A stretch of 38,191 nucleotides of DNA from Chloroflexota bacterium (GTDB taxonomy: Bacteria > Chloroflexota > Anaerolineae > B4-G1), in contig JAAEPW010001215.1 in the NCBI GenBank assembly GCA_024232355.1, forward strand, positions 1 to 38,191, given 5' to 3'. The translations under genes and the position numbers were made by a program. This document shows, one piece after another, positions 11,639-38,191 of the stretch. Position 1 is the stretch's first letter; each line of letters starts with the position of its first letter. Below the pieces are notes generated by a model. That model was not told the origin of the DNA, made no database searches, and was given only the letters and a program-made list of their open reading frames with translations.

Positions 11639-14611
11639 TCAGAGTCCAGAGTCATCAGAGTCCGGAGGTAACGGGGACACTACGACCAATCGAAAACCGA
11701 TGCTGCTGTAGCGAAGGTGCGGATCGAAGTCGATCCGACAGGCACAGCGAACGTACCTATTGAGGTAGAGGAACGAACCGCCACGCAAAACCCGGGAGGC
11801 GTTGGGGCCAGCCCCCAAGTCCTCCCGTCCATCTGTTGAGGTATAAGGATAACTCTTGTAACAACTCCGTGTCCACTCCCATACGTTCCCGCTCAAATCC
11901 TCAATCCCATATGGACTTGTACCGCCGGGAAAACACCCCACTGTGCTCGTCGTGCCGATACTCGTATCCTTATAGTTAGCTCGTTCCGGATCAGGATTAT
12001 CCCCCCACGAATACCGCCGCTTTCCCCGCTCACTCCAACTAGCTGCCTTTTCCCATTCCGTCTCCGAGGGCAGGGTCACTTTCCAGCCATCTCTCAGCAG
12101 TCGCGTCACCACTGATTCTGTTTGTGTGTTCTCTCGCAACTGCTCTGTCAGCCAGCGGCAATAGGCCAGCGCCTCGTACCACGTCACACCCACCGCCGGA
12201 TGGTTGGGCAGGTTAAATGGCGCGCCGTAATCTACCGGGCGGTCGCGTGGCTCATCGTCGTCAGGCCCCTTGAACTTGGCGCCATCCCAAAAACCGGCGG
12301 CTGCCGCTTCCGTCCAGTAGTACGTCACACCATACCCTCCATCGCCCACAAAGGCATCAAACTGCGCCACCGTCACCGGGTAGCGGGCGATATAGTACGC
12401 GGACAACTCGACGGGATGTTGGGGTTGTTCATTACCATACGCCATATCGTCCTGTTGTTTATTGCTGCCCATCAAGAACTTGCCCGCCGGAATCTCTACA
12501 AATCCCAACATCGGCCCTTCGGCTGCGCTCAGGGCAGGTTCGTCAGGCAAATGCCAGGCATCGGCACGAAAGCGCGGATCGCCCGCCAAAGCCAACGCCC
12601 GCCCGGCCAGCGCCCGCTCCTGGGCCGGACGAGTTTCGCTCCGCATCGCCTCCATCGAAAAATCCTGGAGCCGTTTCCGCTGCACGCCGGGCAGTTTGTC
12701 CGTCATATCTTGGGCACATCGCGCCGCCAGGTGCGCGTATTCCATATCTTTGGGTTCCAACAGTCTTTCGATCAGCAACCCTGCCGCACCACTGCTCAAC
12801 TCGGGGTGCGCCCCGGCCAACAATAGCACTTGCTCCCACCACTCGTCCGGTGCCGGCGCGTGGTGCAGGACCTCTTTCAACAGGTATGACTCTCTCTTAT
12901 TTACCAGGTACGTGGCCGCCAGGTACTCGCGAAAGGCCTGGTGGGAAAAGGTGTGCAACCCCTCGTCAATGGCAATAAAGAGGCCGCTGCGCTCGTGCAT
13001 CACATCCAGGAACTCGCGCGCCCACTTTTCCGCCGTATGCTCGTCGGCCCGTTCCTCGTCACAGTAAAAGCGAGCCAGTGTCTGCACGGCATCATGAGCC
13101 GGCACCTCTGGCGCAAAGTCCTGCTGCATCTGCCAGGCCAGAGAGACCAGAGCGCGCCGCCGGAACTGGATGGCCTGTTCGGTGCTTTGCTCCCTAGTGC
13201 CCAGGCGGGCCAACTCGCCGGGGCTGAACACGTCGCGGCGTTCTTCTTCCCAACGGCCCAACAGCAAGGTGACGATCTCGTGCAACACGTCTACCCGGCG
13301 TTCGGGCAATTTGCGGCCCCGGTATTTGTAGACCAACACCAACGTGGTGCAGAGCAGCGGGTTACCGGCCAGATCGGCCAGTTGGCGGTTGGGCGTAATG
13401 CAATCGAGCAAATCCTGGGCCTCGGCGCGGCCGGTATCCGCGCTGCCGGTCAATACCGTCAGCAGGTTGGTGATCAGCCGCCGGTACCCGTCCGGGTCCA
13501 TGTCGAGCACGTCGCACACCTGGGGTTGCGGCAACGCTTGGCGTATCGCACTGCCCTCCTGGTAAGCGCGCGGGCGCGAAGTTAGCGCAAAGCGGTTGCC
13601 CTTGGGTTTGTAACGGCGGATAAAGGCTGCCACCTGGCGCGCCACTGCTGTCCGCAGATCCCCGCCGCCGTTCAGCACCCCGCTGGCCTCGTCCAGGGCG
13701 TCCAGCAGCAAGAAACATTGTCCGGTGTCGAGCCGCTTTCTCAGAAAATCGGGCGAAAACCGCACATCGGCACCACGTAGGTGTTCTTCCAGGTATTCCA
13801 ACAGCGCCCGTGGCTGCGGGTCCACGTATCGTCCCTCCCGGTCCTGCGCTTTGAGGAATGCGCCAAAGTTGCGCAGCGGCACCAGCAGCGGCAGCGGGGC
13901 GGGACCTTCCCAGCCCAGTTTCTCCCGGTGCTCGCCACGCGCGAACGATAGCGCGACATGACGTAACAACGTCGTCTTGCCGCAACCGGGCTTGCCGCGC
14001 AGCAGGACACAAGGGTACTTGGACAATATCTCGGGCAGTGTGACCGGCTGAACCGCCTCTGTCATTTCGTCCGGCATCCGGTCAAACCGTTCTAATTGGC
14101 GGGAGACGCGAAACTGCCGCGCCGTCGCTTCAGGGTCGGTGATGCGCAGCGGGACAAAGACCGTCTCAATGTCGGCTTCGGTATACACTTTGCCCGTCTC
14201 GGGGCGGATAAAGAGAAAGGACAGCTTGCTGTGCTTTTCAAAGACGACGTTGTTAAAATAAGCCCGCAGCGCGCCAGCGTCATCGGCGGTGTGGTCGAAT
14301 CCAAACTGCCGGGCGAACAGTTCCAGCACCGCTTGGGGCAGTTCGGTGATGACGACGTTGTCGCCGGTGATCACATGGCCGACCACGTCGCGGGCGATCA
14401 CCGCACCCTCACCGGCGGCCTTGGCACCCTCACCCTGTGCAATGGCCCCGGAGCCGGATAACGCGGCCAGGAGCACGGACTGTTTCTCGCGCAGCTGGCT
14501 CAGCATAGTCTTGATCTGCTCATCGTCCAGGATGCCGCGCAGCGCTTCCTGGGCAGCGATGGCCTGTTCGAGCTTTTCCAGTTCTGCCTGTAGCTGTTCT
14601 TGTTCGTTCAT
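11639..14611 (-). CDS. DGR target T1: NACHT receptor with diversified FGE/lectin-like C-terminus (990 aa)
   Basis: A STAND-type NTPase receptor. Residues 1-50 form a helical hairpin (LQAELEKLEQAIAAQEALRG), 52-88 the Gly/Ala-rich module GSGAIAQGEGAKAAGEGA, then a linker; NACHT starts near 195 with GKPGCGKT at 206-213 and Walker B LLLDALDEAS near 302. Helical repeats follow (about 430-690), with HQAFREYLAATYL typical of NACHT proteins. From about 700 an FGE-sulfatase fold begins (FVEIPAGKFLMGS, YPVTVAQFDAF, LPSETEWEKAA, LSGNVWEWTRS). Residues about 938-979 are encoded by the variable repeat. The ATG at 14611 overlaps the reverse-transcriptase stop (ATGA) and is preceded by AGGAG, so it is translated from the same mRNA. 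Likely ligand-sensing switch; ligand unknown. Confidence 0.93.
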   Translation of the reverse strand: MNEQEQLQAELEKLEQAIAAQEALRGILDDEQIKTMLSQLREKQSVLLAALSGSGAIAQGEGAKAAGEGAVIARDVVGHVITGDNVVITELPQAVLELFARQFGFDHTADDAGALRAYFNNVVFEKHSKLSFLFIRPETGKVYTEADIETVFVPLRITDPEATARQFRVSRQLERFDRMPDEMTEAVQPVTLPEILSKYPCVLLRGKPGCGKTTLLRHVALSFARGEHREKLGWEGPAPLPLLVPLRNFGAFLKAQDREGRYVDPQPRALLEYLEEHLRGADVRFSPDFLRKRLDTGQCFLLLDALDEASGVLNGGGDLRTAVARQVAAFIRRYKPKGNRFALTSRPRAYQEGSAIRQALPQPQVCDVLDMDPDGYRRLITNLLTVLTGSADTGRAEAQDLLDCITPNRQLADLAGNPLLCTTLVLVYKYRGRKLPERRVDVLHEIVTLLLGRWEEERRDVFSPGELARLGTREQSTEQAIQFRRRALVSLAWQMQQDFAPEVPAHDAVQTLARFYCDEERADEHTAEKWAREFLDVMHERSGLFIAIDEGLHTFSHQAFREYLAATYLVNKRESYLLKEVLHHAPAPDEWWEQVLLLAGAHPELSSGAAGLLIERLLEPKDMEYAHLAARCAQDMTDKLPGVQRKRLQDFSMEAMRSETRPAQERALAGRALALAGDPRFRADAWHLPDEPALSAAEGPMLGFVEIPAGKFLMGSNKQQDDMAYGNEQPQHPVELSAYYIARYPVTVAQFDAFVGDGGYGVTYYWTEAAAAGFWDGAKFKGPDDDEPRDRPVDYGAPFNLPNHPAVGVTWYEALAYCRWLTEQLRENTQTESVVTRLLRDGWKVTLPSETEWEKAASWSERGKRRYSWGDNPDPERANYKDTSIGTTSTVGCFPGGTSPYGIEDLSGNVWEWTRSCYKSYPYTSTDGREDLGAGPNASRVLRGGSFLYLNRYVRCACRIDFDPHLRYSSIGFRLVVVSPLPPDSDDSGL
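11675..11798 (-). repeat. Variable repeat VR1 (in T1)
   Basis: Aligns to the TR over 124 nt without gaps. About 17 differences fall at template adenines; five do not, four of them in the middle codons (AGG to TTC, AAT to CAC, GAT to CTT) plus one GGC/GGT change. The ends match the present TR (CTC at the start, ATCGGT at the end). Confidence 0.93.
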
Positions 14612-38089: not shown

Positions 38090-38191
38090 TCAGAGTTCAG
38101 AGGGTTCAGAGCCCAGAGGGAACGGGGACGCCAGCATAACTCGAAACCCGCCGAAGTAGTACCGAGAGTACGGAAGCCCGAGGTTGCGGTA
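38090..38191 (-). CDS. C-terminal end of a further FGE-domain protein (runs off the right edge)
   Basis: 34 codons before the stop at 38090. It reads YRNLGLPYSRYYFGGF, then RVMLASPFPLGSEPSEL, aligning with the end of the DGR variable repeats (YRN..PR.R.YYGFRLVVVSPLPP). The Asn/Tyr/Ser-rich pattern fits a diversified tail, but the 3' flank (GTTATGCTGGCGTCC in place of TTGGTCGTAGTGTCC) differs from the TR, so it may no longer be a homing target. Rest of the gene is outside the window. Confidence 0.8.
   Translation of the reverse strand, partial: YRNLGLPYSRYYFGGFRVMLASPFPLGSEPSEL

Follow-up and report, generated by a model that had tools for sequence, protein, structure and literature searches.

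A diversity-generating retroelement among six tandem NACHT receptors of a Chloroflexota contig, and a short motif common to these receptors and two putative effectors

In this study, we describe a diversity-generating retroelement (DGR) lying among six NLR-like receptor genes on one entire contig of a Chloroflexota bacterium (JAAEPW010001215.1, assembly GCA_024232355.1; 38,191 nucleotides, GC 0.59), hereafter the window. We consider it somewhat probable that this DGR rewrote the lectin-fold tips of the receptors and that the receptors, as predicted, use a shared short motif to pass their signal on to two effectors, one a caspase-like CHAT protease and the other small and helical. That the DGR is genuine follows, at the level of sequence, from its reverse transcriptase (RT) and Avd protein, its template repeat (TR) and variable repeats (VRs), and its adenine bias; present mutagenic retrohoming activity is what we infer from the same features. 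By their domains, the six targets are NLR-like receptors in which a NACHT domain is followed, at the C-terminus, by an FGE sensor of C-type-lectin fold.

The retroelement and its targets

On the minus strand, the DGR core runs in the order Avd, transposase, TR, a 221-nt spacer and RT.

16809..17162, minus strand: Avd accessory protein (bAvd PF22296; NF033474; start revised to 17162)
16239..16775, minus strand: repetitive extragenic palindromic (REP)-associated tyrosine transposase, between Avd and TR (NF047646, 146.5 bits)
15987..16112, minus strand: TR, 33 A in 126 nt
15766..15986, minus strand: TR-RT spacer, with strong RNA structure when folded together with TR
14608..15765, minus strand: DGR reverse transcriptase (IGNLTSQ at aa 212, YVDD at aa 248; RVT_1 match)

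A preliminary description of this DNA had reported avd, a TR and an RT with IGNLTSQ and YVDD, and all are present. The pairing of RT and Avd that marks a DGR was found, with RVT_1, bAvd and NF033474 above cut-off (87.1 bits for Avd against NF033474, cut-off 80). The TR folded with the spacer (15766-16112) gives a z of -4.96. None of the 22 A-bearing codons in the TR is mutable to stop, and about 10^16 protein variants are possible per target. Beyond these copies, no full-length stretch on either strand of the contig exceeds 50% identity to the TR over 126 nt; in the window, Rfam at gathering scores gave no family and the tRNA/tmRNA search gave none. The targets and their VRs are as follows.

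11639..14611, minus strand: target T11, motif-NACHT-FGE receptor (Pfam NACHT, FGE-sulfatase; start revised, probably 14611; motif 14360-14467)
11675-11798 (124 nt; 126-nt frame to 11800), minus strand: VR of T11
17361..20498, minus strand: target T17, N-terminal hydrophobic segment, motif, NACHT, FGE (VR 17397-17522)
20710..23652, minus strand: target T20, motif-NACHT-FGE (VR 20746-20869)
23868..26705, minus strand: target T23, zinc ribbon (below Pfam cut-off), motif, NACHT, FGE (VR 23874-23997; 3' hairpin missing)
28122..31037, minus strand: target T28, motif-NACHT-FGE (VR 28158-28283)
34245..37064, minus strand: target T34, zinc ribbon, motif, NACHT, FGE (VR 34281-34406, the sole VR with 0 non-A differences)
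38126..38191, minus strand: seventh VR, cut by the contig end (direct-repeat family D2, 37986-38174)

Pfam NACHT scored above cut-off in 6/6 targets, FGE-sulfatase was matched in 6/6, and Walker A and B motifs were recognized; the six reading frames are open, and the VR lies within the C-type-lectin-fold domain at the 3' end of the target. The tip of T34 matches TvpA (PDB 2y3c) by sequence at E 2.8e-7, its predicted structure has an NLR fold, and PADLOC gave T34 a weak match to mad8. The preliminary description had correctly seen six adjacent full-length genes each ending in a gapless copy of the TR: TR 15987-16112 and the six VRs align without gaps. It had missed the NACHT/NLR identity of the receptors and the motif linking them to putative effectors. 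By eye, T17 alone among the targets starts with a hydrophobic glycine-rich stretch (20268-20498), and thus might have a membrane part of its own.

Substitutions were counted on the sense (minus) strand in the 126-nt frame for all six VRs. By TR base, changes were found at 96/198 A, 16/192 C, 12/180 G and 13/186 T sites (41/558 for all non-A sites); with 124-nt extents for T11, T20 and T23, the counts are 94/195 at A and 38/555 elsewhere. Enrichment at A was seen in every VR (p = 3e-9 for T34, 2e-8 for T11, 1.5e-3 for T17, 5e-6 for T20, 4e-8 for T23 and 5e-7 for T28). The differences thus gather at adenines and are not spread over all bases, an even spread being what the preliminary description had named as speaking against a DGR. 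T34 carries 13 changes, all at A, and its non-A sites match the present TR at 93/93. A possible seventh target had also been proposed; its 66 nt of VR (38126-38191) and the same 3' flank support it, but the copy is partial and, with 15/22 A sites and 11/44 non-A sites changed, fits the present TR worse.

Across the 15 pairs of targets, the N-terminal/NACHT parts differ at 36-58% of nucleotides and the FGE upstream of the VR at 21-48%, whereas the VRs differ at 4-12% of non-A sites (88-96% alike) and at 42-73% of A sites. Since the non-A backbone is so alike across divergent gene bodies, it is likely that the VRs were replaced from shared templates after the genes had diverged. At the protein level, the closest T34 homologue (P0242, from another assembly and 84% identical) differs from T34 at 13/17 A-coded residues, 5/25 other VR residues, 53/220 FGE residues and 78/671 of the rest; three more homologues give p values of 1e-10 to 1.3e-5, and the more distant P0335 gives 9.6e-4. 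This comparison between assemblies is an indirect approach to the variation among strains that the preliminary description had named as a check.

The present TR accounts fully for T34 alone, and T11 is intermediate in its match. The VRs of T17, T20, T23 and T28 have in common C30G, T31C, C32T and C95G relative to the TR, and at codons 28, 31 and 33 they imply AAT, AGG and AAC, as in the TR of a related locus (L001), where the window TR reads GAT, AAC and ATC. It is probable that the last rewriting of these four came from a different template, be it a second TR or the same TR in an older state, as far as six VRs and one relative can indicate, and their shared non-A marks mean that the six targets are not equally fed by the present TR. 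Homing would then be uneven, with T34 most recently written by the present TR and the other four retaining marks of another or older one. Service of these four in trans from a second TR at another genomic site is compatible with the reading we favor and competes only with an older TR; it is conceivable, if on the doubtful side. The four shared marks and the L001 codons suit it, but L001 disagrees with the four VRs at codons 10 (GAC) and 24 (AGG), the TRs of L025 and L010 differ again, the contig carries no second TR, and an older state of the window TR explains the data equally well.

A label follows the VRs on their 3' side.

34131..34280, minus strand: 3' label of T34 (~150 nt; hairpin of 12 bp)
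below VR starts 11675, 17397, 20746, 23874 (degenerate), 28158 and 38126, minus strand: equivalent labels (the seventh VR has the same 3' flank)

The label is better conserved than its surroundings: behind the VR, mean pairwise identity is 0.84-0.89 over the first 80 alignment columns, then 0.72-0.75 and then 0.35; upstream of the VR it drops from 0.58 to 0.32, values that are understated because they were computed ungapped. A hairpin of ~9-12 bp occurs in 6/7 labels (5/6 full VRs) and is lost in T23. By blastn, the label stands directly behind the VRs of relatives including L001, L017, L025, L029 and L039. In 48 TR/VR rows from relatives (rows with <85% A, <8 mismatches, inverted repeats or short flanks excluded, a few overlapping or reciprocal rows of L037 and L067 included, mononucleotide shuffles), folding is stronger downstream of the VR (mean z -2.17) than on its upstream side (-0.54; Wilcoxon p 6e-6), with the caveat that the downstream region is often non-coding and that the region behind TRs folds equally (z -2.15). 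In the BPP-1 system rebuilt in E. coli, as one part of its published account describes, deletion of the stem-loop at the equivalent place impaired homing severely though incompletely (PMC12875486); since T23 has lost its hairpin, it is predicted by analogy to be a poor homing target. That the hairpin is a transcription terminator or repeat element without a role in homing seems to us rather improbable. Its place just past the stop codons, the common folding of gene 3' ends, and the four or five T that follow a second, smaller hairpin further on in T17 and T20 would fit a terminator; however, the terminator scan, which listed 19 sites in 11400-28400 (16.6 expected) and 15 in 27900-38191 (9.6 expected), placed none of them within any of the seven labels, and the blastn matches put this flank just behind the VRs of the relatives named above.

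A motif shared by receptors and putative effectors

Three further genes of the array share a motif with the targets.

26745..27974, minus strand: CHAT (caspase-like) protease (PF12770 E 1.3e-30; HYVGHG and ACQS present; start revised to 27974)
31077..33296, minus strand: NB-ARC receptor outside the set of DGR targets, carrying a zinc ribbon and the motif (PF00931, PF13240; motif aa 32-66)
33616..34095, minus strand: BELL-like candidate, a small protein predicted to be all-helical (AlphaFold2 helices 3-104; motif close to the C-terminus, aa 110-146 of 159)

From homologues of the small protein, 115 motif segments were combined into a profile, which matches 9/210 open reading frames (ORFs) of the window, namely the six targets, the NB-ARC receptor, the CHAT protease and the small protein. 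The 35-aa motif stands ahead of the NTPase in the six targets and the NB-ARC receptor, and the CHAT protein ends in it (26751-26864, aa 412-449 of the 450-aa ORF, 55.5 bits). The same motif is therefore found at NLR N-termini and effector C-termini in neighboring genes (9 proteins, one array), which is the layout of BASS motifs, and by analogy it may be an amyloid or similar templating element. PADLOC matched the CHAT protein to SAVED_CHAT (E 9e-10), and no solved structure matched it by sequence at E <= 0.01. Helices 3-104 of the small protein are predicted by AlphaFold2 with high confidence, the first of them hydrophobic by eye. The small protein was also considered as a UBact (ubiquitin-like) protein; its NCBIfam score of 21.9 bits against a cut-off of 35 was treated as noise.

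Beyond the window, the motif was found in 58/5824 ORFs across 71 DGR loci and 30 fetched regions (55/5727 without L139), and none of the reversed and shuffled ORF controls scored above 14 bits. The fetched regions (L110-L139) had been picked since their genomes matched the small-protein alignment, and L139 repeats L045. The motif occurs in 19/58 distinct NACHT+FGE ORFs (20/60 rows), always ahead of NACHT, and in 61 of the 120 listed proteins nearest the T34 tip, in 59 of these before NACHT. The small-protein alignment matches at least 45/396 genomes of the class of L001, a lower bound because at most nine candidates were scored per genome. Within 8/30 fetched regions, an NLR is preceded at <=141 nt by a motif-bearing non-NLR ORF in nine cases, in four of which the two genes overlap; 5/9 of these NLRs have a detected motif themselves. 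At L045 (Candidatus Contendobacter by its label), a motif-bearing DGR target lies beside two other carriers of the motif: a protein whose similarity to TIR/DUF4062 is below cut-off, with the motif ending 36 aa short of the C-terminus, and a C14 caspase, with the motif at aa 290-320 of 454. When receptor N-termini were compared with the C-termini of their neighbors (64 NLR ORFs, 46 with an upstream neighbor), pairs in L121, L117 and L114 only rose above the 99% control; five further pairs score 69-91, below a control tail that itself includes motif-bearing C-termini. The L114 pair has no match to the motif profile. There, a different short motif joins the C-terminus of a small protein and the downstream NACHT protein (L114:6083-9928), which suggests that more such motif families exist.

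We propose that the RT would copy the TR with errors at A and that the complementary DNA would replace the VRs flagged by the 3' label. Binding of a ligand at the FGE tip may open the NACHT domain and let the receptor oligomerize, whereupon its motif would template the same motif on the CHAT protease or the small protein and lead to abortive death, so that several independently mutating sensors would feed common effectors. The cell-death output and phage-related ligands are what we suppose. In its boldest form, to which we give slightly less than even credence, this would be a hypermutating bacterial inflammasome network, in which one retroelement keeps rewriting at least six ligand-binding NLR tips and a shared prion-like motif connects all of these sensors with the same caspase-like protease and with an effector of pore-forming type. 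The cell would then possess an anticipatory repertoire, similar to that of antibodies, which ends in one death output. If true, receptor specificity would be randomized and output fixed, which is the logic of adaptive immune receptors.

Weighing the readings

Several observations weigh against the reading that we favor. Each of five VRs has 6-10 non-A differences, Avd and TR are now split by the REP transposase, and DGR activity is something we infer from the sequence of the array. The motif is present in only 9/40 NACHT+FGE ORFs at the 71 DGR loci and the RT was not seen in 28/30 fetched motif regions, so that motif and DGR are not obligately linked. It lies >40 aa from the C-terminus in 15/30 distinct non-NLR motif ORFs and at aa 90-127 of 494 in the CHAT protein of L133, and an EAD7 domain occurs in 4/120 listed homologues, behind the motif region in P0189 and P0215. 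Receptor/neighbor medians of 29 vs 28 across loci give no general effect. AlphaFold2 models the motif as unstructured and at low confidence, an outcome that speaks neither for nor against an assembly motif, and the likeness to BASS is one of layout. For the small protein, Foldseek against PDB returned 18 matches at E <= 10 and none at E <= 0.001, and its action on membranes is a guess.

A rival reading is a DGR/NACHT conflict system of the ordinary kind whose targets have expanded; its receptors act singly, and the motif is a structural linker or oligomerization element of the receptors with no effector bridge. DGR-diversified NACHT sensors with no identified adaptor have been described (DGR 3, in the part of PMC10907252 cited here), and 31/40 NACHT+FGE ORFs at DGR loci are without the motif. 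Nevertheless, the motif sits at the C-terminus of both the CHAT protease and the small helical protein inside the array, and a private linker would not predict the matching receptor/neighbor pairs of L121, L117 and L114; we judge this explanation unlikely. Still less likely, in our view, is a decaying DGR, a museum of past diversification in which the TR and five of the six VRs have drifted, the REP transposase has inserted and T34 at most is still served. The 6-10 non-A differences of five VRs, the lost hairpin of T23, and a transposase that among the ORFs of the 71 relatives was seen in L045 only, ~5 kb past the RT, would all suit decay. On the other hand, RT, Avd and TR all remain, their frames and those of the six receptors are open, the 13 changes of T34 are all at A, the hairpin is kept in 5/6 full VRs, and VR backbones are 88-96% alike at non-A sites. 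Under the reading of a DGR coupled to effectors, the array offers a natural test of multi-target homing, with one TR, six same-strand receptors, one clean VR, four VRs with marks of another template and one hairpin-less target.

Surroundings and comparison with known systems

The REP palindrome CGCGATTTCCAATCGCG occurs 6 times in the window vs 0.14 expected. A pair (16176-16192 and 16221-16237) and a single copy (16791-16807) adjoin the REP-associated transposase near the TR, a second pair (33391-33451) lies between the NB-ARC gene and the small-protein gene, and a variant (28003-28019) lies near the CHAT start. A 94-nt inverted repeat (9961-10054 and 37535-37628, 87% complementary) encloses the integrase and, apart from the seventh VR, the complete array, and the tyrosine recombinase at the downstream edge of the array (10321-11355) is possibly a mobile island boundary. 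Type I restriction-modification genes (1410-8235; PADLOC assigned the R and S subunits, and the M gene was recognized solely by reading) adjoin the array and make its surroundings a defence neighborhood. At the contig edge (1-494), a 69-nt tandem repeat of 7.2 copies is, by eye, leucine-rich-repeat-like on the minus strand.

Among named genomes, the RT has its closest relatives mostly in metagenome-assembled genomes labelled Chloroflexi or Chloroflexi classes (69% identity over full length for L001, 73% over part for L025). A phage origin was considered and set aside: RT relatives in 141 phage records are all <60% identical (best among the 5 matches listed, 36%), as are those in 3255 records of a plasmid collection, where the 5 matches listed are cyanobacterial at 45-49%. 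Among genome contigs, 71 RT relatives were found, 59 with an Avd match and 42/71 with at least one clean TR/VR pair. None of these loci has >2 NACHT+FGE ORFs or >3 clean TR/VR pairs, within flanks that end at 10 kb on contigs that are often short (>=17 kb in 15/71) and with drifted VRs undercounted, because pairs were kept only if >=75% of mismatches were at A; an equal 10-kb span from the RT in the window covers the VRs of 4/6 targets. The preliminary description had called the target number unusual, and six in tandem is indeed rare (0/71 relatives exceed two targets). Several targets per DGR are not new: 271/948 DGRs have multiple VRs (PMC6642488), and one TR serves seven targets in T. denticola (PMC4891356).

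Animal NLRs carry leucine-rich repeats at the place of the FGE tip of the window receptors, and sequence identity to NLRC4, NOD2 and NLRP3 is 14-19%. A VMAP ternary conflict system was also considered; no MoxR or vWA was found among 14 window proteins (Pfam, E <= 0.01; contig only). Multi-target DGRs and DGR-diversified NACHT sensors are already in print, the latter in putative conflict systems with proposed adaptor-recruited proteases (PMC10907252). The combination of tandem DGR-varied NLRs sharing a BASS-like motif with two putative effectors was not found in print: coupling of a DGR to an amyloid motif did not appear in titles or abstract openings of the literature searched, in which subscription papers and bioRxiv are thinly covered, and the motif strings had no match there. 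The word 'amyloid' occurs once in PMC10907252, in the reference list, and once in PMC8195603. If the reading is true, the window joins DGR diversification of NACHT sensors with bacterial amyloid-motif NLR signaling, two literatures that, in the papers searched, were linked only via a citation.

The following comparisons draw on parts of the cited papers. Like the window, the TvpA DGR of Treponema denticola pairs one TR with several FGE-type targets, there seven in number, but these are scattered over the genome and are not NLRs, 3/7 in ATCC35405 being predicted lipoproteins (PMC4891356). The Stenotrophomonas SKA14 DGR likewise has six VRs in different ORFs, but with two TRs, and 5/6 ORFs encode DUF1566 proteins (PMC6642488). 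BASS motifs are N-terminal on NLRs and C-terminal on their partners, BELL or less often CHAT or TIR (PMC7889193), in neighboring genes and over 20-40 aa (PMC7889193, PMC8086366), as in the window; the window receptors differ in their DGR variable repeats, and the likeness is by layout. In the systems of PMC10907252, as here, a DGR varies the C-terminal FGE/CLec tip of STAND proteins, and adaptor-mediated recruitment of a protease is proposed (EAD8 and a trypsin-like protease). The clade 5D loci of that study commonly have two targets, in contrast to six in tandem and a partial seventh here, and in the window the predicted bridge is formed by a short BASS-like motif that the CHAT protease and the small helical protein carry.

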